From positions 1 through 31,098 of the IMG/VR virus record IMGVR_UViG_3300025770_000065: 31,098 nucleotides of DNA; one strand, written 5' to 3'. This document shows positions 1-31,098 of this stretch, in pieces. How positions within the stretch are numbered: the first letter of the stretch is position 1; every line of letters begins with the position of its first letter. The translations under genes were made by a program, and so were the position numbers. The notes under the pieces are model-generated. The model had not been told where the DNA came from. It ran no database searches and was given only the letters and a program-made list of their open reading frames with translations. The stretch is from a virus.

Positions 1-3000
1 AACACTAACACAACACAAGTAGCTACCACTGCTTATGTGCAGACAGAACTTACAGACTTAATAGGTGGGGCACCGACTGCATTAAACACATTAAATGAAC
101 TAGCAGCAGCAATCGACGACGACGCGTCTTACGCCTCAACGTTGACTACTGCGTTATCTACAAAGTTACCACTTGCTGGTGGAACTTTGACAGGGGATTT
201 AACTGTTTCAGGTAATCAAGTTATAACGACTAATACAAGTGCTGATGTTAAGTTCTCAGTGTGGAGCGGAACTACTTACGGTATAGGCATGACCTCAGGA
301 GTCACTTACGGTGGCCTCAATGACTACGCTATGACGTTCTGTATGAATAATGCCGCGTCGAGGGGGTGGTGGTGGGGGTACGCCGGACAAAGCAAGTCAA
401 GTGGGGCGATGTCATTAACAATGGCAGGACATCTTACTTTAGCGGGGAATGCAACCTTTGCAGGGGATACATTTTCAACTGGATTATATATAAATTCAGC
501 AAGTGCTGTTTCTGGGACTCAAGTCGCTATTGTTGGAACTGGTACTGAAAATTTACAACGATGGGGATCTGCCAATAGCGGGCAAGCATCGTATAGGTTT
601 AGAATAGATCAAAATTATAAATTTATCGCCAATAGTGGTAGTGGTGATAATATCACATTAGATTCGTCTAATGGAACAGGCTTCTTTACAGGTTCACTAT
701 CCGCGTCTAACCTATCCGGCACAAACACAGGCGACCAAACGCTTCCAACTTTATCTTCATTAGGTGCATTGTCAACTAGCGGTGGTACAATGACGGGGGC
801 GTTGGAGCTCGGGGTGTACGCTTCAACTGTTCAAGGTGTTTTAAAGTTAAATGGGTCTACAGCGAATAAGCAGTCCGTTATAAAAACCACAGATGGCAAT
901 CTACACATAGACGCCGCCTCCGGTAATGCTATTTATTTAAACTGGTATGGGGGAACACAAGGAACACAATTTGGTGATGGGTCTGGCGCGAGCGGCGCAA
1001 GCGTAAGTGCTGGTGGTGTTTACACCGCTACAGGAGGTACGTCCACACAGTGGAATACGGCTTATACTCACTCACAAGCAACACATGCGCCATCGGGTGC
1101 AACGGTTAATTCAGCTGACGCTTATTTATTAGCTAGAGCGAACCACACCGGGACGCAGGCATACAGTACGTTAACTGGCACCCCCACAATACCTTCTGGT
1201 AACGCTATATTAGATTGGACTGCAGACCAAGGTTCAAGTAATATACACGCTAACAATATAACTGGTTATATAAACACAACTGAACCAAACGAATCATTCA
1301 ACCCTTTTGGCGGACAGAAATTTCATGATGGTGTATTAACAAACGCATTAGCGGGTAGGCACTCTAGATTTACGGTCACTGTTAATGGTACCACTGAGTC
1401 GGGAGCCCCTCTGCAGCTATCAAACCAAAATTTTGAGCAATATAGTACTAACAACCTTTTCGGGACCAGTGCAGGTGAGACTAAAGTGTTCAGTATTAAT
1501 GTTCAATCTTTAGCAACAGGCTCCGTTAACTCTAGTGGTATAACATATTGTGCAGGGTTTTTTGATGTATGTTTTTACTCTAACCCCTTCCCTGCTTCAT
1601 GGTCTGCGAGGGTTAAAAACAAAGATGGTAACTGGACAACAGTATCTTCTTTTACGAAAATTGGGAATTCTAAATTAAGAGGCGTAATACCTATTAGTAA
1701 CTACTTAACAGACATTGAGTTCACACTAGTAGCAAGAACAAGCGCTCCGTTTGTTACCGGGGCTATAACCTACGGTATATCTGAAATGGAAATATATTTC
1801 AGTAGAATAGCGGCTTCGCAGGGAGGTAACATATCTTCTCTTGGTGGTTATTTAGGTGGAACAATAACAACTGCTTCCGGAACAACCTCTAATAATTGGA
1901 ACACAGCCTACGGTTGGGGAAATCACGCTAGTGCTGGATATACTTCAAATACTGGAGATATTACCGGAGTAACAGCAGGCACGAATCTAAACGGTGGCGG
2001 GACATCAGGTGCGGTCACTTTGAATTTGGATTCAGCCATTGAATTAACCTCTGTACAATATGGTTCAGGGGTTACATTGTCTGAATCAGGTGACAGGCCA
2101 GACTTGCTTTACATTGAAAGTGCAACGGCAACTTGGGGTGGGTTGCAAATAGGTAACACATCAAGCGAGTTCATTTTCTCCCTTATGGGTGATGGGACAC
2201 AAGGCGGTATTTTTGATGACCAAAATTCTGATTGGATTCTTCAGTGGACTGAAAACGCAGGAGTTCAACTGAGATACAATGGTGGAACAAAACTTGTCAC
2301 TACAAACGGAGGTGTATCTGTTACTGGCGCTTTAACAACAACGGGCACTGTCACCGCTACTGGAGGTAATTCCACCGAATGGAACACAGCTTACACAGAC
2401 CGCAACAAGTGGGATGGTGGGGCGACCGGCTTAGTGGCGGCAACAGGTAGAACGTCCTTAGGACTAGGCACAGCAGCCACAACAGCATCTACAGCGTACG
2501 CGACATCAGCACAAGGCACATTAGCAACCAACGCTTTACCAAAGGCAGGTGGTACGATGACCGGGAACCTGACAATGACAGGCTCTCCTGTACTAAGCAT
2601 CGCCACCCACACTGGGTATGAGATTGATTTCACGGGTACCACAGGAGCCACTAACATCCGCTCTGCAGGCACTAACATGTTCCTTCTTGCTGGTACTGGT
2701 AAGTCGTTACGCTTAGGTTCTAACAACGTTAACACAGAACTAGACCTGTACGACGGTAACCTAACCTGTAAGACTAACATAAATCCAGACGCAACCACAA
2801 CCTATGACTTAGGTAGTGACTCTCTACGCTGGTGGACGGTATTCTGTGAGACACTAGATTCAGCAGGTCTACATGAGAAAAACCTATCTAATAAAGATGT
2901 AGGTGACTACCCAACCGGGACCGTCCTAGTATGGGCTAACGGAAAGGCTGTGCCTTCTATCAACAGGGCCGACTACATGAAGATTGGTATTGCGGTTGAG

Positions 3001-3219
3001 GGAATGAATTCACCTCTTGTACACGGAGCGGAGCCGGTGCTTTGCACTGGGCCTGTTAGTGAGGGTGACTATCTAGTCACTTCGCGCAAAGAGGGACACG
3101 CCGTAGCAATGAAAAGGCAAGCGGTTAAAGAGCAGGGTCTTATGGACTGTGTGATAGGTAAGGCATTAATGGCAGGTGATGGTGGAAGCCACCTTGTGAA
3201 AACTTGGTTAACAATTTAA
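1..3219 (+). CDS. Tail fibre protein, 5' end outside the window
   Basis: The reading frame is open from base 1, so the GTG at 37 is not a real start and the gene begins upstream. At least 1072 residues are visible. The protein is rich in Gly, Thr, Ser and Asn and shows typical phage-fibre patterns: TTQVATTAYVQ at the window edge, GGT(L/M)TG-type units (three copies, nt 175-200, 781-800 and 2551-2570), NHTGTQ and NTGDQT stretches, and three TSxxWNTAY units. The last ~100 residues form a different, conserved-looking domain with EPVLCTG, GDYLVTS, GHAVAM and VIGKAL motifs, possibly a trimerisation or tip domain. By family it would be a trimeric host-recognition fibre on the tail. No S74 chaperone motif was seen. 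It is followed after 3 nt by the beta-helix gene. Fibre role is fairly sure; receptor unknown. Confidence 0.85.
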   Translation, partial: NTNTTQVATTAYVQTELTDLIGGAPTALNTLNELAAAIDDDASYASTLTTALSTKLPLAGGTLTGDLTVSGNQVITTNTSADVKFSVWSGTTYGIGMTSGVTYGGLNDYAMTFCMNNAASRGWWWGYAGQSKSSGAMSLTMAGHLTLAGNATFAGDTFSTGLYINSASAVSGTQVAIVGTGTENLQRWGSANSGQASYRFRIDQNYKFIANSGSGDNITLDSSNGTGFFTGSLSASNLSGTNTGDQTLPTLSSLGALSTSGGTMTGALELGVYASTVQGVLKLNGSTANKQSVIKTTDGNLHIDAASGNAIYLNWYGGTQGTQFGDGSGASGASVSAGGVYTATGGTSTQWNTAYTHSQATHAPSGATVNSADAYLLARANHTGTQAYSTLTGTPTIPSGNAILDWTADQGSSNIHANNITGYINTTEPNESFNPFGGQKFHDGVLTNALAGRHSRFTVTVNGTTESGAPLQLSNQNFEQYSTNNLFGTSAGETKVFSINVQSLATGSVNSSGITYCAGFFDVCFYSNPFPASWSARVKNKDGNWTTVSSFTKIGNSKLRGVIPISNYLTDIEFTLVARTSAPFVTGAITYGISEMEIYFSRIAASQGGNISSLGGYLGGTITTASGTTSNNWNTAYGWGNHASAGYTSNTGDITGVTAGTNLNGGGTSGAVTLNLDSAIELTSVQYGSGVTLSESGDRPDLLYIESATATWGGLQIGNTSSEFIFSLMGDGTQGGIFDDQNSDWILQWTENAGVQLRYNGGTKLVTTNGGVSVTGALTTTGTVTATGGNSTEWNTAYTDRNKWDGGATGLVAATGRTSLGLGTAATTASTAYATSAQGTLATNALPKAGGTMTGNLTMTGSPVLSIATHTGYEIDFTGTTGATNIRSAGTNMFLLAGTGKSLRLGSNNVNTELDLYDGNLTCKTNINPDATTTYDLGSDSLRWWTVFCETLDSAGLHEKNLSNKDVGDYPTGTVLVWANGKAVPSINRADYMKIGIAVEGMNSPLVHGAEPVLCTGPVSEGDYLVTSRKEGHAVAMKRQAVKEQGLMDCVIGKALMAGDGGSHLVKTWLTI
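1023..2397 (+). repeat. Three dispersed copies of a WNTAY fibre repeat
   Basis: Within the tail fibre gene, a ~45-nt unit encoding approximately TxTGGxSTxWNTAYT occurs at 1023-1068, 1870-1914 and 2353-2397. The first and third are very close (TATGGTSTQWNTAYT and TATGGNSTEWNTAYT); the middle copy is degenerate (TASGTTSNNWNTAYG). Such units usually mark boundaries between repeated fibre modules and are sites where modules can be exchanged. Confidence 0.7.
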
Positions 3220-3222
3220 GAT

Positions 3223-4716
3223 ATGGCGTTTAGAATATATAAAGGTAAATTTCAAACCAAAGCAAACCCGGGTGATGACTGGAACATGTCGTACATGTTC
3301 GATGCTGAAGGTGACATGCGGAAGACTGACGCGGCTGGTAATGACATTGGCTCTATTAGCGGAACAGGTTCAAACTCTGTTTACGTTACACCCACAGGAA
3401 CTGCTGCACAAAATGGAGTTTTATTACTTGCTGGACTTACAGATGCAATTGCTAAAATTGTCAATACTTCAGTTCCAGGTTCAAACATTCCTATGAATAT
3501 GTATGAGCAATCTGGGCCATCATCTTATACTGGCTATGCAGTCAGTGCTGTTCAGTTTTCAGTCGTGCCACAATATCAAGCAACATTCTTGCCTGATGGA
3601 TTTACTCCAATGCAAGTTTTAATAACTATAAATTGGGTGGGCGCATATGGCCCTGACACTTTTGAGTTTGACATTACCGACTTAAGTGGGGGGCCAATTA
3701 TGATTGGAGGCGGCCCTACTCCACTTTTCCCAACTCCCACTTCAACTTTAACAGTTCCTTCAACTTTAATAATAGCACCTGGAGATTATAGTATAGCATC
3801 CGACTTCATTTTGAATAATTTAGTGAATGTTACTTCTTTAACTGGTCAAGCAGATGTTAACATAAGCACAAGCAATGTTAAGATACAATCGGGAGCAAAT
3901 AATTCAAGTCATCCTATCAGCGTTGTAGGTTTAAATCTAACAACATCGCTTTGGATTGAAAGTAACTTATCATATTTAACTTTTAAAAATTGTAAGGCTT
4001 TAGGGACTAATTCGTTTAGCATAGAGCCAAGCGGAACAGGTTCAATATCGGGAACTTTTGAAGATTGCACAGGGGACTTTAGGTCTTTCGGTAGTGGTGT
4101 TGGAGTAACTGCTTCGGGTTTATTTATTAGATGTAAGGCAACAAGCAGTGCTGCTTTTGGTGGGAAAGGTTCTACGTCTGGCTATTTTGAACATTGTGGC
4201 GGTGCAGTATATGCTCAAGGGTATCTAACAGGTGCGCCATCGGCATCTTTTGGTTCAGATGGCGTTACTGTTAATGGTTATTTCTATTACTGTATAGGCA
4301 GCGGCAGCAGTTTTGCATCACAAAACACAGGGGCTACAGGTGCTGAATTTCACTATTGTAAAGCAATGAACCAATCTTTTGGTTATCGAAATACAAATAA
4401 CTCAGGCAAATACTATAATTGCTCGGCTACTAATGCAGGGAATCAATGTTTTGGTTCAAATGCCTTAAGTGGAGATACTGCTGCAAATGCCCGATATTAT
4501 AACTGTACAGCAAATACTATAGCACAGAACAGCACTTTGTCTTCTCAGTTCTATAATTGTCACGCTGGTTTACATTGGAATGGTTACATTGCAACTAATG
4601 GGGGATTAGCTTATAACTGCTCTTTTGGTTCGGTTGGTAATCAAGGTGGAGTTACTGGAACAGGTAAATATAGAAATTGCTTAGATAGTTCATTTGAGAT
4701 AATTAACGAAGGATAA
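3223..4716 (+). CDS. Parallel beta-helix adhesin with cysteine ladder
   Basis: A 497-residue protein. Residues 1-50 (starting MAFRIYKGKFQTK) look like a virion-attachment region. The C-terminal half is a repeat of about 18-32 residues in which each turn ends in [F/Y]xxC, mostly NC. The cysteines fall at residues 257, 282, 304, 325, 357, 379, 400, 428, 446, 466 and 486, often after an FG step. Stacked Asn/Cys at the same turn position is a hallmark of right-handed parallel beta-helices of the kind seen in tailspikes and polysaccharide-binding or -degrading proteins. I see no catalytic residues I can name, so binding is as likely as cleavage. It starts 3 nt after the tail fibre stop. The gene becomes A/T-rich toward its 3' end compared with the head genes, suggesting acquisition. 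Role as receptor-binding protein is inferred from fold and position. Confidence 0.72.
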   Translation: MAFRIYKGKFQTKANPGDDWNMSYMFDAEGDMRKTDAAGNDIGSISGTGSNSVYVTPTGTAAQNGVLLLAGLTDAIAKIVNTSVPGSNIPMNMYEQSGPSSYTGYAVSAVQFSVVPQYQATFLPDGFTPMQVLITINWVGAYGPDTFEFDITDLSGGPIMIGGGPTPLFPTPTSTLTVPSTLIIAPGDYSIASDFILNNLVNVTSLTGQADVNISTSNVKIQSGANNSSHPISVVGLNLTTSLWIESNLSYLTFKNCKALGTNSFSIEPSGTGSISGTFEDCTGDFRSFGSGVGVTASGLFIRCKATSSAAFGGKGSTSGYFEHCGGAVYAQGYLTGAPSASFGSDGVTVNGYFYYCIGSGSSFASQNTGATGAEFHYCKAMNQSFGYRNTNNSGKYYNCSATNAGNQCFGSNALSGDTAANARYYNCTANTIAQNSTLSSQFYNCHAGLHWNGYIATNGGLAYNCSFGSVGNQGGVTGTGKYRNCLDSSFEIINEG

Positions 4717-4726
4717 AAATATAAAA

Positions 4727-5059
4727 ATGAAAGACTTTAAAAAAATGCACAAAAACTCTGAATGGGTCGCTTTGGTTAATTATCAATTGTCAGATACTGA
4801 AAAACAGTTAATGGATAAAGATGAAAAAACAGATGCAGAATTACTGTTAATGGGTGAATTGCATAAAAAATTTGAATCACAGCCAAGCACAAAAGAAAAA
4901 GAACTTTTAGATAAAGTTTATGAATCATTGTTAGATAGAAATGATATAAGCAAAGAAGATATCAATTTACAAGGTGCGCATATAACGATAGAAAATAATA
5001 AACTAAGAGGGGTTTTGAATCTAATTGGAGATGATGGATTTCAGCAATTATCGTTTTAG
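4727..5059 (+). CDS. Small charged protein following the beta-helix adhesin, unknown
   Basis: A 110-residue protein I do not recognise. It is Lys/Glu/Asp-rich and mostly helical by composition, with a more beta-like end (HITIENNKLRGVLNLIG). It begins 10 nt after the adhesin stop with an A-rich leader. Its base composition is unlike the head genes: bases 4681-4860 contain 49 G+C of 180 (27%) against 89 of 180 (49%) at 14281-14460 in the capsid gene. A small gene directly behind a receptor-binding gene is often a dedicated assembly chaperone, but nothing in the sequence proves that here. It probably travels with the adhesin, since the orphan end of another gene begins right after its stop codon. 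Confidence 0.65.
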   Translation: MKDFKKMHKNSEWVALVNYQLSDTEKQLMDKDEKTDAELLLMGELHKKFESQPSTKEKELLDKVYESLLDRNDISKEDINLQGAHITIENNKLRGVLNLIGDDGFQQLSF

Positions 5060-5062
5060 TAA

Positions 5063-5146
5063 CCTACGGAACTCATCGCGGCAGTACAGGCGCAACAGGC
5101 AACTATCGAAGCACTAACTGCTCGTATAGAAACACTTGAAGGATAA
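5063..5146 (+). pseudogene. Orphan 3' end of an older tail-type gene
   Basis: A 27-codon stretch with no start codon reads PTELIAAVQ at its beginning and ARIETLEG before a TAA stop. It is a heptad-like coiled coil ending in LEG, a very common C-terminus of phage fibre and fibre-chaperone proteins. An in-frame TAA (5060-5062) directly precedes it, immediately after the TAG stop of the 110-residue gene. The best reading is the surviving C-terminal coding end of a gene whose body was replaced by the adhesin plus 110-residue cassette. It could also be an accidental open stretch, but the amino-acid pattern argues against that. Confidence 0.55.
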
Positions 5147-5165
5147 TAAACACTAAACAAACATT

Positions 5166-5357
5166 ATGATCGATAAATTAAAAACAATGGTAGCGTCCTT
5201 TAAGAAAGGACTTATACAGTATCTAAACACAAAACCATCCGCCGTATCCGCTACTTTTACCTTAGGATTAGCTATTGGAGCGTTTGATCTCTCCCTCGGC
5301 TTGTTCTTCCTCGGAGGGTACGCTCTTTGGTTATTCGCAGGTAAAAAATCTAAATAA
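5166..5357 (+). CDS. Small membrane protein, unknown
   Basis: A 63-residue protein. Residues 1-22 are basic and amphipathic (KLKTMVASFKKGLIQYL). Residues 26-58 are strongly hydrophobic with one Asp at 41, enough for one long or two short membrane segments. The tail is GKKSK. Small phage proteins of this shape include holins and superinfection or membrane-anchoring proteins, but there is no endolysin next door, so a holin call is not supported. It lies 19 nt after the orphan gene end and 29 nt before the next gene, each preceded by an A-rich leader lacking a Shine-Dalgarno site. Confidence 0.6.
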   Translation: MIDKLKTMVASFKKGLIQYLNTKPSAVSATFTLGLAIGAFDLSLGLFFLGGYALWLFAGKKSK

Positions 5358-5386: not shown

Positions 5387-5650
5387 ATGGCAAACAACAT
5401 TCAAGACCCCCAATATTACCAACTCGCTTCCTTTGGGGCTTTTGGCTTCCGTAAAATCACATCAACATATACCCCTATTGCGGGAGAGGACTACAGAGTA
5501 GTCTACGCTTTAACCGCGGCCACTTTGTCCGTAACCTCTGGATTAGGGGACGACCTAGTGGGTGTTGACGTTGCGGCGGGTACTGTAATTTACGGAGTAT
5601 TCTCCGCTGTATCTGTTAGCACAGGTACTGTAATCGCTTACTTGGGTTAA
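5387..5650 (+). CDS. Small beta-rich virion-type protein
   Basis: An 87-residue protein starting MANNIQDPQYYQLASFGAF. The second half alternates hydrophobic and small residues (TLSVTSGLGDDLVGVDVAAG, then VIYGVFSAVSVSTGTVIAYLG), as in small all-beta phage proteins that decorate heads or fibres. No enzymatic motif is visible. It sits in a run of small adhesin-region genes upstream of the packaging genes, and a TAATAATG arrangement links it to the 39-residue ORF that follows. A structural role is inferred from composition and place only. Confidence 0.6.
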   Translation: MANNIQDPQYYQLASFGAFGFRKITSTYTPIAGEDYRVVYALTAATLSVTSGLGDDLVGVDVAAGTVIYGVFSAVSVSTGTVIAYLG

Positions 5651-7814: not shown

Positions 7815-10042
7815 TGTACAAACAGACACTAGTGCGTACGGTTCAACCCCTTAAGCTATCGACGGTGAGTCGCATGAATGCAGCTAAGAAGTGGGAATAC
7901 GGATATGACAAGGAGCATGATATCATTGTTATCAGTAAAACCGGTCAGATTGGAGAGATATATGATATTCAAGGGCTAGTTGTTGCCTTACCTAAGGTTA
8001 AGAAAGCGGAGAAGGATAATAATTTAGGGAAAAACAAATGGATAGCCACGCAGTATCCAGAGGAGTTGAAGAACATTAAGAATATATTTGACTGGAAAAA
8101 ATATCCAGAGGCCTTTAAGGAAGAATGGGAAGACTATATAAACAATGAATTTAAAAGGCGTGACGAAGGCTACTGGTTTTCTAATAAAGGTGTTGACACT
8201 TATATTACTGGTAGCCACTACATGTACCTTCAGTGGTCCAAAACAGACGTCGGCAAACCAGACTTTAGAGAGGCAAACAGACTCTTCTTTATATTCTGGG
8301 AAGCATGCAAAGCGGACGTGAGAAGCTATGGCATGTGCTACCTTAAGAATAGACGGAGTGGCTTCAGCTTCATGTCAAGTGCTGAGACCGTAAACCAAGC
8401 TACTATTTCTTCAGACTCCAGGTTTGGTATTTTGTCTAAGTCGGGTTCTGATGCTAAGAAGATGTTCACGGATAAGGTTGTTCCTATGTCGGTCAACTAT
8501 CCATTTTTCTTTAAGCCCATACAGGATGGTATGGACAGACCTAAATCTGAACTTGCTTACAGGGTTCCGGCGTCTAAGTTTACGCGTAAGTCTTTACACA
8601 CACACTCGGATCTCGAGGCGCTACAGGGGCTAGATACGACTATCGATTGGAAGAATACAGGAGATAACTCCTATGATGGCGAGAAACTAAAGTTATTGGT
8701 GCATGATGAGAGCGGTAAGTGGGAGAAGCCTGATAACATATTAAACAACTGGCGGGTTACAAAAACTTGTCTTCGTTTGGGTAGCCGTATTATCGGCAAG
8801 TGTTTAATGGGTAGCACTTCAAATGCGCTAGACAAAGGAGGTAATAACTTCAAAGGGCTGTTTGAGGGATCAAACGTTTCGAAGAGAAACCGCAACGGAC
8901 AAACAAAGTCTGGATTATACAGCTTGTTTATTCCCATGGAGTGGAACTACGAGGGGTTTATCGATGAGCACGGCATGCCGGTCTTCGACACGCCTGCAGA
9001 GGATGTTTACGGTCCATTTGGTGAGGTTGTAGATGTGGGGGTTATAGAACATTGGGAAAACGAAGTTGAAGGTCTTAAAGAGGACCAGGACGGGTTGAAT
9101 GAATTCTACCGTCAATTTCCTAGGTCGACGGAGCATGCTTTTCGAGACGAAACAAAAGATAGTATATTTAATCTAGCAAAAATCTACGATCAGATTGATT
9201 ATAACGAAGACTTGCGTAATACTAATGTAGTGAGTACTGGTAATTTTCAGTGGGAGGACGGCATCAAAGATTCTAGGGTTGTGTTTAACCCTGATGCAAA
9301 AGGAAGGTTTAAGCTCTCGTGGATTCCGCCACTAGCCATACAAAATAGCGTGGTGGTTAAGAATGGGGTTAAGTGTCCCGGTAACGAGCACATGGGCGCA
9401 TTTGGATGTGACTCATATGACATATCCGGAACTACAGATGGCAGAGGCTCTAAAGGAGCGTTGCACGGTTTGACAAGATTCTCTATGGAGGATTGCCCGC
9501 CAAACCAGTTTTTCTTAGAATACGTTGCCCGCCCTCAAACAGCGGAGATGTTTTTCGAAGATGTTCTTATGGCGCTAGTGTTCTACGGGATGCCGCTATT
9601 AGCAGAGAACAACAAGCCTCGACTGTTGTATTACCTACGCAGGCGAGGATACCGAGGATTCTCAATGAACCGCCCAGACAAAGCTATTAATAAGCTTTCG
9701 GTAACGGAAAGAGAAATAGGTGGAATACCTAACTCGAGTGAAGATATTAAGCAGGCACACGCTGCAGCGATTGAGATGTATATACAAAACTTCGTGGGAC
9801 TCAAGGAAGACGGGTCATGCGGAACCATGTACTTCAACAGAACGCTAAACGATTGGAGTAAATTTGATATAACAAAGCGTACTAAGTTTGACGCTGCGAT
9901 CAGTTCAGGACTAGCTATTATGGCCTGCAACAAACATTTATATACGCCGAGTAATAAAATTGAAAGAGAACAAGTAAACATAAGCATGGCCCAGTACTCT
10001 AATACTGGATCACGATCAAGAATAATTAACAATTATGGCTGA
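7814..10042 (+). CDS. terL: Terminase large subunit (packaging ATPase-nuclease)
   Basis: A 742-residue motor that pumps DNA into the head through the portal and cuts it. The ATPase half shows a P-loop-position segment LKNRRSGFSFMSSAE (178-191), Walker B LLVHDE (294-299, D298 E299) and coupling motif MGSTSNA (332-338). The nuclease half shows GCDSYD (D533), FFLEYVARP (E569) and KFDAAISSGLAIMA (D693), fitting the acidic triad of the RNase H-like fold. The lysine normally following Gly in Walker A is replaced by Phe. The SGFSFM ... DSRFGILSKSGSDAKKMFTD region and the ~740-residue length match my memory of crAss-like terminases. Translation is coupled to neighbours: TAATG with the preceding gene and an 8-nt overlap with the portal. 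Confidence 0.92.
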   Translation: MYKQTLVRTVQPLKLSTVSRMNAAKKWEYGYDKEHDIIVISKTGQIGEIYDIQGLVVALPKVKKAEKDNNLGKNKWIATQYPEELKNIKNIFDWKKYPEAFKEEWEDYINNEFKRRDEGYWFSNKGVDTYITGSHYMYLQWSKTDVGKPDFREANRLFFIFWEACKADVRSYGMCYLKNRRSGFSFMSSAETVNQATISSDSRFGILSKSGSDAKKMFTDKVVPMSVNYPFFFKPIQDGMDRPKSELAYRVPASKFTRKSLHTHSDLEALQGLDTTIDWKNTGDNSYDGEKLKLLVHDESGKWEKPDNILNNWRVTKTCLRLGSRIIGKCLMGSTSNALDKGGNNFKGLFEGSNVSKRNRNGQTKSGLYSLFIPMEWNYEGFIDEHGMPVFDTPAEDVYGPFGEVVDVGVIEHWENEVEGLKEDQDGLNEFYRQFPRSTEHAFRDETKDSIFNLAKIYDQIDYNEDLRNTNVVSTGNFQWEDGIKDSRVVFNPDAKGRFKLSWIPPLAIQNSVVVKNGVKCPGNEHMGAFGCDSYDISGTTDGRGSKGALHGLTRFSMEDCPPNQFFLEYVARPQTAEMFFEDVLMALVFYGMPLLAENNKPRLLYYLRRRGYRGFSMNRPDKAINKLSVTEREIGGIPNSSEDIKQAHAAAIEMYIQNFVGLKEDGSCGTMYFNRTLNDWSKFDITKRTKFDAAISSGLAIMACNKHLYTPSNKIEREQVNISMAQYSNTGSRSRIINNYG

Positions 10043-12443
10043 GTCAGTTACAAATAGTTATTTCCCATCCCAGACCGCGGGCGACAAAGAGAAAGCTTCT
10101 CATGAGTACGGGTTAAAGGTTAGCTCCGCTATTGAGCGCGAGTGGTTTAACGGAGCCAGCGGCTCTAATAAATACGCATCCACTGGGGATTCGTTTCATC
10201 TGTTGCGTCTTTACGCTCGGGGAGAACAACCCATCGGGAAATACAAAGATGAGCTATCGATCAACGGGGATCTATCTTATTTGAACCTGGACTGGAAGCC
10301 CGTACCCATTATCTCAAAGTTTGTTGACATTGTAGTCAACGGGATCTCAGAACGAGCTTTCCAAGTAAAAACATTTACACAAGACCAGCACGGAATGAAT
10401 AAGCGCTCAGCTTATATGAAATCAGTGCTTAAGGATATGCGCTCTGCCCCAATGCTCAACGCCATACTAGCGGGTACTAATATTAACCTATACGAGAACA
10501 ACCCAGCTGAGTTGCCTGGCTCGAAAGAGGAGTTGGATCTGCACATGCAGCTTAACTACAAGCAAGGTGTGGAAATTGCAGCGGAGCAAGCTATTAGTGT
10601 TACATTAGCGGATAATCGTTATGATGACGTCAAGAAACGAATCACTAAGGATCTAACCGTTATCGGTATTGGTGCCGTCAAGCATAATTTTAACGAGAGC
10701 ACAGGTGTGGAAATCAACTATGTTGACCCCGCTAACTTAGTATACTCCGCAACGGACTCTCCTTATTTTGAAGACATTTATTATGTAGGAGAAGTTAAGG
10801 AAATCCCCGTGAACGAATTGATGAAGATTTATCCAGATATGGATCTAAGTGAAATCGATAAGAGTTCTAGGACTTCAAAGTTTGGTAACGGTTCTTCGTC
10901 TCGGGATCGGGCGGACAACAATTTTGTTAAAGTATTGTATTTTAATTACAAGACATTCGCGAACGAAGTGTACAAGCTTAAAACAACAGGCTCTGGCGGG
11001 AGTAAGATTATCAAAAAAGATGATACCTTCAATCCTCCTGTGTCTGAAACTATGGAATATTCCAAGCTATCTCGCTCAATAGAGGTCGTTTACGAAGGGG
11101 TAAAAGTAGTCGGCAGTGATGTACTGCTGGAATGGGGAGTTGCGGAAAATATGACTCGCCCTAAGAGTGATAGCACTAAAGTACGCATGAACTATAGCAT
11201 TTGCGCACCAAGTATGTACCGCGGTAAGATTGAAAGCTTAGTCGGTAGAGTAACGGGCTTTGCGGATATGATCCAGCTCACTCACCTTAAACTACAACAA
11301 GTCTTATCAAGAATGGTACCAGACGGCGTTTACCTAGACGCAGACGGGCTATCGGAGATTGACTTAGGCAACGGAACAAATTACAACCCGCAGGAAGCAC
11401 TTAATATGTTCTTCCAAACAGGTAGTGTTATCGGGCGCTCCATGACGGCTGACGGTGAACTGAACCACGGCAAGGTTCCAATTCAGGAATTACAATCCGG
11501 GGCGGGAAGCAACAAAATCAATGTACTCGTCAACACGTACAACTATTACCTTCAAATGATCCGTGATGTTACCGGATTGAATGAAGCTCGTGACGGCTCT
11601 ACTCCAGATGAGAGAGCACTAGTAGGTGTGCAGAAGATCGCAGCAGCGAATTCCAACACAGCCACACGTCATATCTTAAACGCGGGATTATTGCTAACCG
11701 CCGAGTTAGTAGAGGGTATCACCCTACGCATCGCAGACATTATTGAGTATGCCCCCGCAAAAGAAGCATTCATTCAAAAGATTGGGGCTCACAACGTGGG
11801 CATCCTGGAAGAGCTGAACGAATTGCATATCCACGACTTTGGTATCTTCTTAGAGCTTGTGCCGGACGAAGAAGAAAAAGCATTATTGGAGAATAACATC
11901 CAAGTAGCACTAGCCCAGCAAGGCATCGACCTTGAGGACGCAATTGACATTCGCGAGGTGCGTAACCTTAAGCTAGCTAACCAGTTGCTTAAGTTGCGTC
12001 GCAAGCAGAAGCACGAGCGTGATCAGCAAGCACAGCAGCAGAATATCCAAGCACAATCGCAAGCTAATATGCAGGCACAGCAAGCAGCAGCACAGCTGGA
12101 CATTCAGAAACAGCAAGCTATCGGACAAGTGGAGGCTCAATTGGAGCAGATGAAAGCGCAGCTCGATTCCCAGAAGCTATCGCAGGAAGGAGCTCTCAAG
12201 AAGGAACTAATGGAATATGAATTCCAGCTTAATATGCAGCTTCGTCAGATGGAAGCCCAAACGTTAAAAGGTCGTGACGACCAAAAAGAAGACCGCAAGG
12301 ACAAGCGCACTAAACTTCAAGCCTCTCAACAGAGTGAGCTTATTGATCAGCGCAAAAATAATAAACCACCAAAGGATTTTGAATCCTCAGGAAATGACAT
12401 ACTAGGCGGTGGTTTTGGCTTAGGTTCTTTTGATCCTAAGTAA
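10035..12443 (+). CDS. Portal protein
   Basis: An 802-residue protein, the size of portals in crAss-like phages. It would form the dodecameric ring at one head vertex through which DNA passes. The N-terminal and central parts fit a portal: YLNLDWKPVPIISKFVDIVV (~residues 80-100), DPANLVYSA, and a long helical clip/stem region around YNYYLQMIRDVTGLNEARDG (~500-520). From ~residue 656 the C-terminus is a Gln/Ala-rich helix (QQAQQQNIQAQSQANMQAQQ and onward to ~775), the barrel-type coiled coil seen in some podovirus portals. It overlaps the terminase by 8 nt. The identification follows from synteny and sequence character; I could not align it. Confidence 0.9.
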   Translation: MAESVTNSYFPSQTAGDKEKASHEYGLKVSSAIEREWFNGASGSNKYASTGDSFHLLRLYARGEQPIGKYKDELSINGDLSYLNLDWKPVPIISKFVDIVVNGISERAFQVKTFTQDQHGMNKRSAYMKSVLKDMRSAPMLNAILAGTNINLYENNPAELPGSKEELDLHMQLNYKQGVEIAAEQAISVTLADNRYDDVKKRITKDLTVIGIGAVKHNFNESTGVEINYVDPANLVYSATDSPYFEDIYYVGEVKEIPVNELMKIYPDMDLSEIDKSSRTSKFGNGSSSRDRADNNFVKVLYFNYKTFANEVYKLKTTGSGGSKIIKKDDTFNPPVSETMEYSKLSRSIEVVYEGVKVVGSDVLLEWGVAENMTRPKSDSTKVRMNYSICAPSMYRGKIESLVGRVTGFADMIQLTHLKLQQVLSRMVPDGVYLDADGLSEIDLGNGTNYNPQEALNMFFQTGSVIGRSMTADGELNHGKVPIQELQSGAGSNKINVLVNTYNYYLQMIRDVTGLNEARDGSTPDERALVGVQKIAAANSNTATRHILNAGLLLTAELVEGITLRIADIIEYAPAKEAFIQKIGAHNVGILEELNELHIHDFGIFLELVPDEEEKALLENNIQVALAQQGIDLEDAIDIREVRNLKLANQLLKLRRKQKHERDQQAQQQNIQAQSQANMQAQQAAAQLDIQKQQAIGQVEAQLEQMKAQLDSQKLSQEGALKKELMEYEFQLNMQLRQMEAQTLKGRDDQKEDRKDKRTKLQASQQSELIDQRKNNKPPKDFESSGNDILGGGFGLGSFDPK

Positions 12444-24220: not shown

Positions 24221-27200
24221 ATGAGTAATACAACACAAGAGCAAGAGGCTCCCACCACGGGCAGTGAAATGCCTCCTGGTATCATTGAGGATCTGCATTC
24301 AGCGTTTACCGCAGGTGGGTATGTAGATTCAATAGAAGAATTTAAACATCTACTTGGCTCCGACAATGATGCCTTCAATGACGCCTTCCAGATAGCAAAA
24401 GATGGTGGATATGTAGACGGATTTGATGGATTTAAAGAACTCTTGAATTCCGAGCTGGGGGGAAAGATCAATGCTCAAGGTGCGGGTGCCGCTGCGAGCG
24501 AGAAAACATACGCACTCTTCCCCAGCGTAGCGGCAGAGGGATTAGAAACTATTTCAACCGTATTTCCCGCTGGATTCAAAGTTATATCTGATCATAAGAA
24601 AGAGGTCAGGTCTGACGAGTTTAAGGATAAGGTGAAGGAGGCACAAAGCAAAGTAACTCTTAACGGCAAGCTGGTGCGGGGCACCCGCCCCAGTTCCAAC
24701 GGATCGTCCCTCGGTAGGCTTAATAACAAAAAGTCAGCTAACCGCACTGTTTATGAATATGATGCCTATGCAGATCAAGCAAAAGCGATTGTTGCGAACA
24801 AGGAAGGCAAAGCAGTGGCAGAACTTAAGAGAGATGATTGGGCTGAGACAGCGGTTTGGCTCGCTCATGAGGCCATTGAAAAAGGTATGCGCGAGGAAGT
24901 ATTTGAGGGCTTGATTAGAGATGTTAGCGAAGAAGATAAGCAGAAGTTATTAGAATCAGAGTACTTCAAAGAGTTTTCCGAGGGGGCTAAAGCCGTAGAT
25001 TCAGACCCTAAGAGTCTCTCAGCGCGTTTTCTTGAGGTTGGTGGGAAAATGCTTGGTTACACCCCTCGCGAGGAGATGTCATTTTATAGGCTATCAGGGA
25101 AAGAAGCAAATGACGCCATGACTAGCTTTATGGGGGCAAAGCTAGAGGAAATAGATAAAACAGTCAGTGACAGGTTTGCTATCGTCGATAAAGATATAGC
25201 TGCGAGGGTGGCCATCCTCACTGATATGACCTCTGATTTAAAAGCCCTTGAAGAAAAATTAAAAAGGCCGGACATCTCAGATGAAGAATACAACGTATTA
25301 TATGAAGAGTATAATCAAGCAGTGGGCGATTACAATATTGCCTATGCAAGCTACCAAAAGGTAAAAGATGAATACATGCCTTTGGCTGAATGGCATTTGG
25401 ACCCGTCACAGCTGGCTGATTTAGCGGGGCGCAGCTACAGGTGGGACGATGTCTTAGTCGCTAGAGTGGATGCAACTTTGCTTGATTTATCAGCTAATGT
25501 GGTTGATCTAGCAGAAAGTAGCGTGGTGGTGCTTGCTGGGGCTTTAAATAGCGCCATTAATTTTATAAACCCTAGCGATTGGGGTAGCCTCCCTGGTTTG
25601 AGCGAGATGGTAAAGAATGACGTAAATAACACCTCGGGAGTTGAAGCATTTGCTAATATTTTGCGTGCTACAAGCGAGGATATTACAGGGGGTGTGCGAA
25701 AACACCAGGCCTTTACCGGTGACCATGGGATAAAAACGGGTGAGGACTTTCTTGAAGCTACATTTGATTTATTCACAGGACAGGCGGTTAACGTCGCATT
25801 AACAGCATCAACTGGAGGTTTGGGATTATGGCTATTAGCCGGATCTGCAGCGGGTGGAAAGATGGCAGAGCTGGAAGACCTCCGAGAAAAGACTGGGGCA
25901 TTAGTGACCCCCCTAGAGTATTGGGGCAGTTCTATCGCTTATGGATTGGGTGAATATATTACGGAAAGAGTGACATTGGGACAGTTTAAAATGGCTAGGG
26001 AAGGAGCTAAGCAACTTATGCGAACAGGAAAAGTCTTAGCCACAGCATCAAGCCGAGCAGCCTTAGCTTCGCGATCTCTCACTAAGTATGGATTGAACGT
26101 TAACTCGGAAGGCATGGCGGAGCTAGGTGCTTCGTTGATTCAGAACATGGCAGATAAGTACATCCTAGGTGAGGATATCTTATTGACTAGAGGGTTGAAA
26201 GAGTCTTATATTTCAGGAGCGGTTATGTCCGGGCTAGGGTTTGGTGGAGTAGGACTCGCTACTGATATGGCCGCGTCCTTTAGCTTATCTACGGAACAAC
26301 TTCAAGCCAACCGTAATTCCAAGGAAATGCTCAAGTTGCAAGACATGATAGTGGAAATCGAGGCCCGCCCAAAGGATGAAAATGGTAAGATTTCAGATAA
26401 AAACAAAAAGGAACTCAATGCCCTAGCTGACAAACAGCTCGAACTATCGAGCAGTAACATAACCTTAATGGGGGTTATGTATGATCGCTTGAAGGACATC
26501 AATGATGGGGACAAGCGGACGCTAATGCATCTCGGTCAAACAGCCTTTAATATCCGTAAAAAAATAGAGGGGCTCACGGAGAGCGGGCTTGAAGGTGACA
26601 TGCTAAAAGACGAATATCGTAAATTAGTTGTCGAACTAAACGAGATACAGGAAACAAAGGATGGTATCATACATGGGGCCACTTACAAGGAAGATACTAA
26701 GCGAGTCCAAGACAACTTACTAAGCCTGCAAGCGCAAGGCATTAAGATTAATTACGTAAATGTAGATAATCCCGGTGATATGGTTGAAGCATTAACTAAA
26801 TCTATTAATGAATCAGATTTAGATGATGACGCAAAAAAGGAAGCGCTAGCTAAGGTAGAAGGCGTAGCTGAAGATGCTCTGAGGTCCTCAGCTAACGGCC
26901 TTGCTTTATCCGAAGAATTAGGGGTTCCCACTATGGTTACTGTCAAGGGTAGATCTATTACCAACGCTGGCACAGTTGCTTCTCACGAGCTATTCCATGT
27001 GTCTGTAGAGACTGCTTTAGAGAACAACGACGTTGATATAATTAAAGTAGCCAATGAGCTAGAAAAATATGCAGGCAAGCGCTTTAAGAAGGCTAAGGGC
27101 CTATTCAAGGCTATAAGAGCTGCATATATAGCCGAAGAGAATCGCGCCATTGAGGAAGGCACCACCCCCCGGTCTAAAGAAGAATTAGAACGATTGATTG

Positions 27201-30200
27201 CAAAAGAAATCTTAACTAATTTTTCTACATTCGCCAGGGAGAACAACCTAGAGATGGACAGGACAGCTGGTGCGCGAGTGATGGATGTTATGCGTAAATT
27301 CATAGGTAACCGCTCAGAGCTTAGCTCTATAGAGTCAGGAGCGGACGTGCTTGAATTTCTGCTAGAATACAATAGTCGCTTCGAAAAAGGCGAGGTGGGA
27401 CATTTCGTAAGTAAAGTTAATGCGGGGAGCTTAACCTTCGGTGATAATTTCAAAGTAGCAAAACCAGGCTCTCAAAGACCAGCCAACCCACGCTCTAATA
27501 AGAGTGTTGACATTAGCGGCAAAGTCCAAAAAATCTACGAAGAAAAAGGAACTGACGGGGCTTTCGAAATTGCTATGGAGTACCAGGGTATGGCTATCAC
27601 AAAAGCCGCTAAGTATCGTAAAGTCCCAGGATTCAAAGCAGTAGAGGATATCATAGTTGATGAGATTATGACTAGCAATAGAGGCGTGTACGGTATGGTT
27701 ATGAAATATGACCCGGCCTCTAAAGTTCCTTTATCCGGCTACATCAATAAATTCTTAGAAGTCCGGGCTGATGAAATTGCTGGCAAATTATTAGGCACGG
27801 AGTTTACCAAAGATGTGACAGAACTCAAGGACTTAGCAGCAGATGAGGTAAGTATTGAGGCAAGTCAAGGCCCTAAAGATGGCAAGCCTAAGGTCTCGTC
27901 TATTATCCGACGAAAGCTTGGACTAGATGATTCCCAAATGGCGGAAGTACGATCAATCGTGGGAGGAACATTAATTTCACCTACCGCACCAAAAGTACTA
28001 GCTAATCTCAAGGGACACCCGAGGGCTTTCGCTGATTACTTATCGAAGGCCTATGGTAAGGCTATTTTTAAGTTGGTTAAAAACCACATGGGTACTGGAG
28101 ACATGTACGTACTGTGGGTAAAAAAGAACCTGGAGCTTTTTGATAAGCACATGCCCCTATCCGCACTCATTAACGGCAAAATGGACTTATTCTATAAGCC
28201 TGAGCTTGATGAGAGCGGCAAACAAAAAAGGATGAACACTATTGAGGCTAACGACGCAGGTATCCCTATGGATAAGACCGGCGCTGGCCCATTAAAGTGG
28301 ACGCGAGTTTCTCCTACTTTAGAGGCTTGGACCGATTGGGGACTAGGCAAGGGCATGGCCAAGAACACTAAGCCTGCTCGTAAAACGACTATGGCTAGAC
28401 TAATAGCTAGAGAGCTGGGCCTTGACGCAACTATGGAAGTATTGCGCAACCCGGCCATACCAGAATTAGACGCTAACGGAAAAGAAACCGGTAAAGTTCT
28501 TAACGCATTTAGCGTGGTGTCTGAACTTAACCAAGAGTCTATTCGGGAGGATCAGATTGCAGCTATGGTTGGTATCCAAGCGCAGCGCTCACCTGATTTA
28601 CGCTTTGGCCTTCCGGTCAACCGCGCTCCGATATATACATACCCCGCCAAAATAAAGGTTGGTATTGAAGCCATTGATAAGCAGTTGCATGAATTGCAAA
28701 AAGCCGTCAATAAGCGAATGGTGGGCGGAATTACGAGAGAGCAGGTCTTGAAGGACAGGGCTGAGTACCCAGAGGTCCAAAAGCAATGGGACAGTTTAGA
28801 TAAAGCCATCAGTAAATCCAAGGGGATGATTGAAATAAACGGAGAACCTGTGGAGCTAGCTAAGTACGTTAAAAAGATAGGCATCAGCAAGTTCATAGAA
28901 AATAAAACTGAGGAGGCTATGGGGTCCCGCAGTGCGGAGATGGTTTTGAATGCTAAAGGAGCGCGGTGGAAAGGGGAATACAAAGATCATATTTTCGCTA
29001 CATGGGAGGCTTGGGCCAAAGCGACTCCACCCCATAATTACGGCGTAGGGTTTGTTGAGGTTATAAATATGTTTACCTTAACAGCCGCTGCTCGAGGTGA
29101 CAAAAAAGCCTTCGCAGGTAATAAACCTTTTTTCGATGCGGTAGTTAAGCCTTTAGCGGATAAAATAAACGAGGCTGGCGGGGAGTTCATGATTGTTCCT
29201 AGACTTGTGGACCCCCAAAACAAAAATGGAAGACATTCTATAGTTGTAGAGACATTCGATAAGAAAACTGGTGCGCCTATCACTACGGAGTTATTAGGGG
29301 GGTTCGCCCGACTTAGTGTTAAAACCAATGAGGTAGCCAGCGGGCTTGCTAGTGCAGAGGGAGCTGTATCAGCAACTAATATAGATGCTCATATAGAAAG
29401 CAGTGCTGAGGCTAAGAAGAAGATTATAGGCATTTTAGAAATGCTGCGGGACGGCAAGCTATCTTCCTTACCAAATAATGTGAAAGCCACCATCCTACGC
29501 GGGTTTGGGGACCATACTAGGGGGGAGGGTCGTACTATGTACGAAGTAACCACCGCTGTATTACTCGAAGGAGAGTATGGGCCAAAGTACAATAAGATAG
29601 AACACAATCTACCGTGGTGGGACATGGGCGGTATTATGGCCATGTACGTGGATAAAGATATTACCCCTGATGAAGGGGTTGCTAAGAAGGCTTTGCTTGA
29701 GGCTATAAATAACGCGACCGCTACTGTGATAAACAAAAAGATCGCAGCCTACATGGACAAAACCGGGGCAAAATTGGTAGACAAAACTAATAGCGCAATG
29801 GGTGAAGACGGTATGCCAGTACGTGCAGCAAAAGCGTCCGATGTGATTAGCAAGCAGAAAGGCAAGGCTATTGTCGTGCGTACCGCAGAAACAGTGAGGG
29901 CCGCTAACAGTCTAAACGTAAATGCGCGCTTAAACGCTATTCTAGAGGCTACTACATCTATGCCTGAAGGATTAATTATAACCCCTACTGAGGCTATAAA
30001 GCGTGGTAAAATAGCAAGTAGGCATCTTTCGAATCAAGGCATTATGATCTCCGCGGCGGAAGACCACGTTGGGTTGTTATACAAAATGGTAGGCAAAGGC
30101 AAAGAAGGGGCTGAGGACTTGCAATGGTTGCTTGACCAGCTCGTTGTGCCTTATGATAAGGCTGTTGATAATGTTTCCCTAGCAAGAATCCAAAAGCGTG

Positions 30201-31098
30201 AGAGACTTCGGACAATGCCTAAATCGGCTGAACTCAAAAGTCAGCTCAAAGGGGAGGCATTTGATAATTTCTCTGGAGAGGATGCGGTGCGTATGTACAT
30301 CTGGAATCAACGCAAATTAGATACAGGTGGTGTTATCAAAAAGGGGTACTCGGAAAAAGCTGTCGCCCACGTTAATTCTAATCCACAGCTTAAAGCCTAC
30401 GCCGACGCTGTATCCGAAATAGCAGGGCCAATCGCATACGCAGCACCCACTAAACGATGGGCTTATGGTTCAGTTAATCATGATCTCATCGGTGGTATTA
30501 ACGGGGACTTAAGAACAAAGGAGCTGGAGGCTTGGTCAGAAAACGCTAAAGAGATTTTCTCTGAGGACAATCTAAATAAGTTAGAAGCTTTGTTTGGCCT
30601 TAATTACCGCCGAGCTTTGGAGAATAGCTTAGAGCGAATGCGCTCAGGGCGAAACAGAATTAGCGCAGAAAATGATAAGGCCTCTAAAACTATGCAAGCG
30701 TGGATTAGCAACTCAGTTGGTGCTATTATGTTTCTTAACGTGCGGTCGTCTGTCTTACAGCTTTTGTCTACGCTTAACTTTATTAATACAACAGATAATA
30801 ACCCCTTCAACGCTATAATGCGTTTAATCAACATACCCCAGTATGCTGCGGACATGCGCACCATCATGCGATCCCCTTTTCTACGCGACCGAATGGAGGG
30901 TATGCGAATTGATGTGAATGAGGAGGATATCGTACAAGCAGAAAAGGAGGCTACTAACATATTTTCTAAAGCACTTAAATTATTGCTGAATAAAGGCTTC
31001 CTGCCGACTAGGCTGATGGATGCCACCGCTATAGTATTAGGTGGGGCAGGTTTCTATAGAAATAGGATCAACACTTATTTGGATTCAGGTATGGATCT
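24221..31098 (+). CDS. Giant polyvalent virion protein, 3' end outside the window
   Basis: Translated by hand from ATG 24221 (9 nt after the previous stop), this frame has no stop to the window end: at least 2292 codons. Order of visible parts: two GGYVDxxxxFKxLL repeats (29-45, 59-75); long helical region; glycine-rich hydrophobic stretches near 527-545 and 663-688, the second following an ENxADKYILGEDILL-type motif; zincin motif HELFH (H922, E923, H926) with candidate third ligand E996; sigma-region-2-like segment (1129-1187); mixed domains; and a C-terminal region from ~2155 with NVRSSVLQLLSTLNF and, near the edge, GFLPTRLMDATAIVLGGAGF. Such mosaics are the polyvalent proteins with LPD domains described in phages and conjugative elements, thought to be ejected with the DNA. 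Individual activities are inferred. Confidence 0.85.
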   Translation, partial: MSNTTQEQEAPTTGSEMPPGIIEDLHSAFTAGGYVDSIEEFKHLLGSDNDAFNDAFQIAKDGGYVDGFDGFKELLNSELGGKINAQGAGAAASEKTYALFPSVAAEGLETISTVFPAGFKVISDHKKEVRSDEFKDKVKEAQSKVTLNGKLVRGTRPSSNGSSLGRLNNKKSANRTVYEYDAYADQAKAIVANKEGKAVAELKRDDWAETAVWLAHEAIEKGMREEVFEGLIRDVSEEDKQKLLESEYFKEFSEGAKAVDSDPKSLSARFLEVGGKMLGYTPREEMSFYRLSGKEANDAMTSFMGAKLEEIDKTVSDRFAIVDKDIAARVAILTDMTSDLKALEEKLKRPDISDEEYNVLYEEYNQAVGDYNIAYASYQKVKDEYMPLAEWHLDPSQLADLAGRSYRWDDVLVARVDATLLDLSANVVDLAESSVVVLAGALNSAINFINPSDWGSLPGLSEMVKNDVNNTSGVEAFANILRATSEDITGGVRKHQAFTGDHGIKTGEDFLEATFDLFTGQAVNVALTASTGGLGLWLLAGSAAGGKMAELEDLREKTGALVTPLEYWGSSIAYGLGEYITERVTLGQFKMAREGAKQLMRTGKVLATASSRAALASRSLTKYGLNVNSEGMAELGASLIQNMADKYILGEDILLTRGLKESYISGAVMSGLGFGGVGLATDMAASFSLSTEQLQANRNSKEMLKLQDMIVEIEARPKDENGKISDKNKKELNALADKQLELSSSNITLMGVMYDRLKDINDGDKRTLMHLGQTAFNIRKKIEGLTESGLEGDMLKDEYRKLVVELNEIQETKDGIIHGATYKEDTKRVQDNLLSLQAQGIKINYVNVDNPGDMVEALTKSINESDLDDDAKKEALAKVEGVAEDALRSSANGLALSEELGVPTMVTVKGRSITNAGTVASHELFHVSVETALENNDVDIIKVANELEKYAGKRFKKAKGLFKAIRAAYIAEENRAIEEGTTPRSKEELERLIAKEILTNFSTFARENNLEMDRTAGARVMDVMRKFIGNRSELSSIESGADVLEFLLEYNSRFEKGEVGHFVSKVNAGSLTFGDNFKVAKPGSQRPANPRSNKSVDISGKVQKIYEEKGTDGAFEIAMEYQGMAITKAAKYRKVPGFKAVEDIIVDEIMTSNRGVYGMVMKYDPASKVPLSGYINKFLEVRADEIAGKLLGTEFTKDVTELKDLAADEVSIEASQGPKDGKPKVSSIIRRKLGLDDSQMAEVRSIVGGTLISPTAPKVLANLKGHPRAFADYLSKAYGKAIFKLVKNHMGTGDMYVLWVKKNLELFDKHMPLSALINGKMDLFYKPELDESGKQKRMNTIEANDAGIPMDKTGAGPLKWTRVSPTLEAWTDWGLGKGMAKNTKPARKTTMARLIARELGLDATMEVLRNPAIPELDANGKETGKVLNAFSVVSELNQESIREDQIAAMVGIQAQRSPDLRFGLPVNRAPIYTYPAKIKVGIEAIDKQLHELQKAVNKRMVGGITREQVLKDRAEYPEVQKQWDSLDKAISKSKGMIEINGEPVELAKYVKKIGISKFIENKTEEAMGSRSAEMVLNAKGARWKGEYKDHIFATWEAWAKATPPHNYGVGFVEVINMFTLTAAARGDKKAFAGNKPFFDAVVKPLADKINEAGGEFMIVPRLVDPQNKNGRHSIVVETFDKKTGAPITTELLGGFARLSVKTNEVASGLASAEGAVSATNIDAHIESSAEAKKKIIGILEMLRDGKLSSLPNNVKATILRGFGDHTRGEGRTMYEVTTAVLLEGEYGPKYNKIEHNLPWWDMGGIMAMYVDKDITPDEGVAKKALLEAINNATATVINKKIAAYMDKTGAKLVDKTNSAMGEDGMPVRAAKASDVISKQKGKAIVVRTAETVRAANSLNVNARLNAILEATTSMPEGLIITPTEAIKRGKIASRHLSNQGIMISAAEDHVGLLYKMVGKGKEGAEDLQWLLDQLVVPYDKAVDNVSLARIQKRERLRTMPKSAELKSQLKGEAFDNFSGEDAVRMYIWNQRKLDTGGVIKKGYSEKAVAHVNSNPQLKAYADAVSEIAGPIAYAAPTKRWAYGSVNHDLIGGINGDLRTKELEAWSENAKEIFSEDNLNKLEALFGLNYRRALENSLERMRSGRNRISAENDKASKTMQAWISNSVGAIMFLNVRSSVLQLLSTLNFINTTDNNPFNAIMRLINIPQYAADMRTIMRSPFLRDRMEGMRIDVNEEDIVQAEKEATNIFSKALKLLLNKGFLPTRLMDATAIVLGGAGFYRNRINTYLDSGMD
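24305..24445 (+). repeat. Two-copy GYVD-FK-LL motif at the N-terminus of the giant protein
   Basis: Residues 29-45 (FTAGGYVDSIEEFKHLL) and 59-75 (AKDGGYVDGFDGFKELL) are the same motif 30 residues apart. DNA identity is moderate, so this is an old protein-level repeat. From memory, similar GYxxSxxxFxxLL pairs occur at the starts of large internal virion proteins of many marine phages, perhaps as a packaging or docking tag. Confidence 0.65.

Follow-up and report, generated by a model that had tools for sequence, protein, structure and literature searches.

Organization of the tail fibre locus

The window, that is, the whole analyzed stretch of DNA, is a metagenomic virus contig of 31,098 bases with no isolate or known host, classed without end repeats. 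No close relatives of this record were found in the collections searched. The large terminase showed 73%–77% identity to those of many IMG/VR contigs, and 62% to that of an uncultured Caudoviricetes record; its identity to those of Flavobacterium and Cellulophaga phages did not exceed about 45%. The phage is an uncultured tailed virus of marine type and distant kin of the latter two groups. A single open reading frame of at least 2,292 codons occupies positions 24221–31096 and extends past the contig end.

The tail region comprises a fibre gene of 1,060 residues (37–3219), a 497-residue gene (3223–4716), a 110-residue gene (4727–5059), and 27 codons lacking a start. They are followed by genes for 63, 87, and 220 residues and then by a conserved block reaching up to the terminase. 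The 110-residue gene ends with TAG (5057–5059), and a TAA (5060–5062) stands in tandem with it. The features of the locus are the following.

2854–3219, + strand: C-terminal part of the upstream fibre gene, a marker of the resident position (59%–73% identity in loci L087–L097)
3223–3363, + strand: residues 1–47, putative resident N-terminal anchor retained from the previous fibre gene (family alignment, codon usage)
3364–4716, + strand: residues 48–497 and stop, predicted beta-helix tailspike body, probably imported (identity to L082 and L083, GC3, fold)
4727–5059, + strand: 110-residue gene accompanying the tailspike, proposed assembly partner (homologues in L082 and L083)
5060–5062, + strand: second stop codon, TAA; the right junction probably lies here or a few bases away (homology borders)
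5063–5146, + strand: startless relic, the putative final 27 codons and stop of a former S74-type fibre gene (S74-tail profile)
5166–5357, + strand: resident gene for a membrane-like protein of 63 residues, about 20 nt 3' of the relic stop (open reading frame)

Homologues of the 87-residue gene (5387–5650), 39%–40% identical, were found in L089 (2172–2435) and L097 (3931–4194), where they lie upstream of the fibre block; small genes near the locus have therefore switched sides.

A probable remnant of an S74-type fibre gene

The relic consists of 27 sense codons (5063–5143; CCT ACG GAA at the start, GGA at the end) encoding the peptide PTELIAAVQAQQATIEALTARIETLEG, and a TAA stop (5144–5146). Direct reading of the sequence confirmed the 27 startless codons that the first-pass annotation had placed right after the TAG-TAA pair and taken for a phage fibre or chaperone C-terminus. 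The latter assignment could be narrowed with a profile of fibres carrying a C-terminal S74 domain. These fibres came from loci fetched mostly via the terminase or the upstream fibre gene and never via the relic; the core profile used to collect them left out the last 38 residues of its members, and the S74-tail profile was built from the last 35 residues of the ten open reading frames collected. Among 1,135 stop-to-stop segments in the six frames of the window, it matched the relic only (E 1.3e-6; next E 6.5). None of 1,000 shuffled versions of the relic peptide reached its score, and none of 33,957 short stop-to-stop segments of related loci matched at E < 0.1 (best 13.0 bits versus 24.2 for the relic). 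Twenty-seven open codons are by themselves unremarkable and could be a random stretch resembling a coiled coil, with the low G+C of the 110-residue gene a local variation, but in view of the profile E-value, the shuffles, and the related loci, the probability of such a coincidence is negligible.

The degenerate pattern LTARIE[AT]LE occurs at least 121 times in IMG/VR. Among the matches listed, 115 of 121 have a stop no more than six residues away and 20 terminate exactly as LEG-stop, mostly after ...KAIQEQQ or a similar sequence. Since the pattern was built from the relic, the likeness is not independent evidence, while the position at the stop is. Judged by these sequence matches, the relic is most likely the 3' end of a tail fibre gene with a C-terminal S74 chaperone of endosialidase type (PF13884). 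It holds just the terminal helix of such a fibre, without the PF13884 core, and a PHROGs search with the 27-mer gave no match. Its first half is approximately four residues shorter than in most S74 ends. Another frame just upstream reads V-T-Y, the usual lead into the S74 helix, and the relic may therefore extend a few codons further in frameshifted form. A second degenerate pattern drawn from the relic peptide (ELIAAVQAQ...) had one IMG/VR match, located inside the terminase gene of L084 and dismissed as chance.

The relic is in frame with the 110-residue gene and still free of stops, and could in principle be functional, either as a coiled-coil extension of the 110-residue protein made by stop readthrough or through an unusual start. 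This is very improbable: two tandem stops intervene, none of the codons is ATG, GTG, or TTG, homologues of the 110-residue protein in two other phages (L082 and L083) end without such an extension, and a shared frame has a one-in-three chance. The open reading of the relic suggests that the event that left it was recent.

The resident anchor and its relatives

Relatives of the locus were recovered using the end of the upstream fibre gene (2854–3216) as a profile, a query that worked, while a search with the anchor only found none. In every related locus with sequence left, a gene starting with M[AG]FRI..G.(F/W)Q directly follows the upstream fibre. Residues 1–47 of the 497-residue protein align with such genes in eight related loci, each time in this position (L069, the same contig as L092; L087; L088; L089 and L090; L091; L093; L094; L095). 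The proposal that the N-terminal 50 or so residues are an ancestral attachment region was thereby borne out, with the end of the region at residue 47–48. The bodies and ends of the genes vary widely; one of the seven complete distinct anchor genes at the locus ends in S74, and most do not. The anchor (in its L087 form), the anchor of L083, and the upstream fibre end were all absent from the isolate phage collection, and PHROGs did not recognize the 46-residue anchor.

The closest relative of the window in this set is L087 (73% in the upstream fibre end), whose contig stops before the gene end. The gene that would link anchor and relic, with a MAFRIYKGKF-like start and an ARIETLEG-like end, had been suggested as a check and is present in L095 (8377–11532). 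This gene of 1,051 residues lies directly behind the same upstream fibre gene and starts with MAFRISRGIWQ...DAAGNEVS. Its C-terminal part contains PF13884 (residues 957–1008, E 2.6e-11) followed by ...KEQQEMIDSLTARIEALENK (...LTARIEALENK). Of the loci collected up to then, L095 matched the N-terminal query best and likewise the C-terminal one, and neither query had been used to retrieve it. Its fibre gene ends with TAATAA, and a new gene begins within 20 nt, a spacing as short as that behind the relic. L095 is not a close relative: the N-terminus is 36% identical to that of the window, and the relic is 61% identical over 23 residues of the L095 fibre end.

Other contents were found at some of these loci. 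L094 (8379–13897) carries an anchor gene of 152 residues followed by a protein of 1,683 residues composed of repeats rich in S and T (NTSRSTTT, TTWNT); here too the fibre body has apparently been replaced. The tail neighborhood of L088 (9997–11806) encodes GroEL-like (522 residues) and GroES-like (85 residues) proteins, and a GroES-like gene of 85 residues is also present in L050.

The tailspike body and its proposed partner gene

Residues 48–497 recur in two IMG/VR contigs, L082 (71%–74% identity) and L083 (55%–59%). The similarity has a sharp onset at G(S/N)NSVYV in each of the phages, on three unrelated N-termini: the anchor of the window, present in neither of the others, approximately 600 residues of another fibre in L082, and the anchor MAIIPNAQQFHTLSSTV in L083. 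A homologue of the 110-residue gene lies directly 3' of the tailspike in all three genomes, with gaps of 10 (window), 15 (L082), and 12 nt (L083). The window protein is 41% identical to its homologue in L082 and 37% to that in L083 (39%–42% in another estimate), and the two homologues share 69% identity with each other. Between the window and L082, conservation of this gene is highest at second codon positions, intermediate at first, and lowest at third positions, indicating a constrained protein. By this shared arrangement, the tailspike body and the 110-residue gene form a two-gene unit. Of 126 four-fold sites in the tailspike gene, 59 are identical between the window and L082; synonymous sites have thus diverged far, and L082 is not the immediate donor.

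Homology to L082 and L083 stops at the stop codon of the 110-residue gene, and the S74 tail starts at 5063. Neither genome has the relic, and both carry other N-termini; the pattern that would have contradicted an exchange, a constant set of adhesin, small gene, and 27 codons in all relatives, was not observed.

Neither the tailspike body nor the 110-residue gene was found in the isolate phage collection, and profiles of both had no match in 84,980 prokaryote genomes. The 110-residue gene alone retrieved no relatives from IMG/VR; single-sequence patterns miss even L082 and L083.

The AlphaFold model of the 497-residue protein is of low confidence (pLDDT 56.5, with the anchor under 40). A VIA-align search with this low-confidence model placed the tailspike of Sf6 at the top (Z 24.6, with an rmsd of 3.0 over 315 residues; model residues 46–489), followed by other tailspikes, many above Z 20, and polysaccharide-active beta-helix proteins. 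The match starts at the border between anchor and body. A ladder of Cys and Asn residues, mostly spaced by 18–25 residues, fits beta-helix rungs. Residues 48–497 are thus predicted to form a beta-helix tailspike of Sf6/P22 type, which most likely attaches to a polysaccharide on the host surface and may also cleave it.

The model of the 110-residue protein is better (pLDDT 83.7). Foldseek searches of PDB and BFVD gave no match for it at E ≤ 0.001, and VIA-align gave no convincing relation; no S74 chaperones were among the structure matches listed by either program, and no convincing sequence relation was found in Pfam, PHROGs, or PDB. Its position behind the tailspike and its co-transfer recall the paired adhesins and chaperones of phages such as Alteromonas phages A5 and V22, and make it a likely folding or assembly partner of the tailspike.

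Composition and codon usage

The first-pass annotation had pointed to an A/T-rich stretch before the orphan end and to a return of the latter to the composition of the rest, and both observations hold. No 180-nt stretch of the window has a lower G+C content than 4681–4860 (0.272); the median is 0.444, and the values are 0.478 for the capsid gene and 0.506 for the relic. The GC3 value is 0.24 in the tailspike body and 0.23 in the 110-residue gene, 0.48 in the anchor, and 0.37–0.51 in the other long genes of the window; the value of 0.30 for the relic is not informative at 27 codons. The L082 and L083 loci have G+C contents of 0.32 and 0.34, and GC3 in their tailspike and 110-residue genes is 0.10–0.18. 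Among the genes compared, the 110-residue gene has the highest A/T content, in L082 and L083 as well.

Codon usage was scored as log-odds of resident genes against cassette homologues. The first 46 codons of the tailspike gene score +7.9, and the sum falls to −45 at the end of this gene; the 110-residue gene scores −27 and the relic +9.7. Resident 27-codon windows average +11.4 and are negative in 3% of cases. The tailspike body and the 110-residue gene are foreign in codon usage, and the anchor and relic are not; the foreign stretch is bordered roughly by the same two junctions as those drawn from homology. A codon-usage change-point placed the left junction near codon 57, and the homology border at codon 48 was preferred.

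The record is a contig without end repeats or an isolate, so a chimera has to be considered, in which assembly merged two phages of the same sample. It would need two independent false joins, one falling in frame at a natural domain border used by two other phages and the other exactly at a gene end, which makes a chimera highly unlikely.

History of the locus

These data are best explained as the scar of an exchange of receptor-binding proteins (probability about 0.86), in which the anchor and relic are resident and the tailspike and 110-residue unit is foreign. The ancestor would have had one long fibre gene with the anchor MAFRIYKGKF... at its start and an S74 intramolecular chaperone with a C-terminal helix (...ATIEALTARIETLEG) at its end. 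A foreign unit of two genes, the beta-helix tailspike body and its 110-residue partner, would have come in by recombination. An in-frame fusion at residue 47/48 would form the left junction, so that the resident anchor carries the foreign tailspike. The right junction would lie at the stop of the partner gene, and the final 27 codons of the former gene would remain untranslated. Having no S74 chaperone in cis, the new tailspike would probably rely on the 110-residue protein for folding or assembly.

The layout of L083 bears on the order of events. It comprises an anchor with the tailspike (7860–9377), the 110-residue gene (9390–9722), and a second copy of the anchor with an S74 fibre (9805–10866), that is, two genes of receptor-binding type sharing one attachment end. 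It is plausibly a half-way state with cassette, duplicated anchor, and resident S74 fibre. Removal of the resident fibre from L083 would give the layout of the window; therefore, a double crossover and an insertion followed by deletion both explain the latter. In the two-step variant, the cassette with a copied anchor was first inserted before the resident S74 fibre, which was then deleted down to its last 27 codons. Besides L083 itself, the right junction of the window agrees with this variant, as it abuts the partner stop, which in L082 and L083 is separated from the next gene by 70–85 nt. The same product could arise from a single double crossover, and an intermediate in the lineage of the window itself is not known; we regard the two-step route as a serious contender at somewhat below even odds. 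The earlier claim that a cassette of a beta-helix gene and a small gene took over the body of an older gene thus stands as far as the exchange is concerned, given the unity of the cassette, its foreign composition, and L095, while its one-step form is left undecided by the L083-type layout.

In a bolder reading, the exchange also swapped chaperone strategies, from S74 in cis to a new type of chaperone acting in trans (the 110-residue family, which would have no kin among known chaperones), and L083 and the window would represent the states before and after the deletion on this route. We consider this idea speculative and rather unlikely. Right after the stop of the 110-residue homologue, L083 (9720–9752) reads NNIAELGKK-stop, which resembles a coiled-coil fibre end and is possibly a second, very short relic.

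Comparison with known receptor-binding modules

In Alteromonas phages A5 and V22, a host-recognition module of a tail fibre and its cognate chaperone is shared by distantly related marine phages (PMC10579305, PMC7289586), and the chaperones, although separate proteins, are similar to the intramolecular ones of K1F/T5 type (PMC10579305). The window likewise has a receptor-binding protein and a paired small gene common to distantly related phages. Unlike the characterized A5/V22 chaperone, its 110-residue protein is without a match in sequence or fold; a beta-helix spike serves as the adhesin, and the replaced gene can still be read at its 3' end. A small gene directly 3' of the adhesin and travelling with it, as in the three genomes described here, is also known from gp38, Tfa, and V22 gp27.

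Modular tailspikes, in which a conserved N-terminal anchor can carry different bodies, have been described for phages like P22, Sf6, and HK620 and for Klebsiella and E. coli phages (PMC8262889, PMC10408124). The window resembles them in that a short resident anchor is fused in frame, at a domain border, to a beta-helix body of foreign origin. It differs in that the exchanged unit includes a second gene and that the isolate collection searched contains neither the anchor (L087 form) nor the cassette. S74 (PF13884) fibres, intact in L095, are the apparent source of the relic; in contrast to them, the window keeps the last 27 codons alone, and its present tailspike gene has no S74 domain. The window and its relatives show the arrangement that characterizes module exchange, a foreign body on a resident anchor that carries other bodies in relatives. 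Such exchange is already well known; a scar as readable as this one is unusual.

Exchange of receptor-binding modules is a main phage route to new hosts, but the points of recombination usually leave no trace. In this case each border can be located to within a few codons, the surviving end reveals which kind of gene has gone, and L083 shows a possible intermediate. The 110-residue gene accompanies the tailspike in all three phages found, which singles it out as a candidate for an assembly partner of a new kind.
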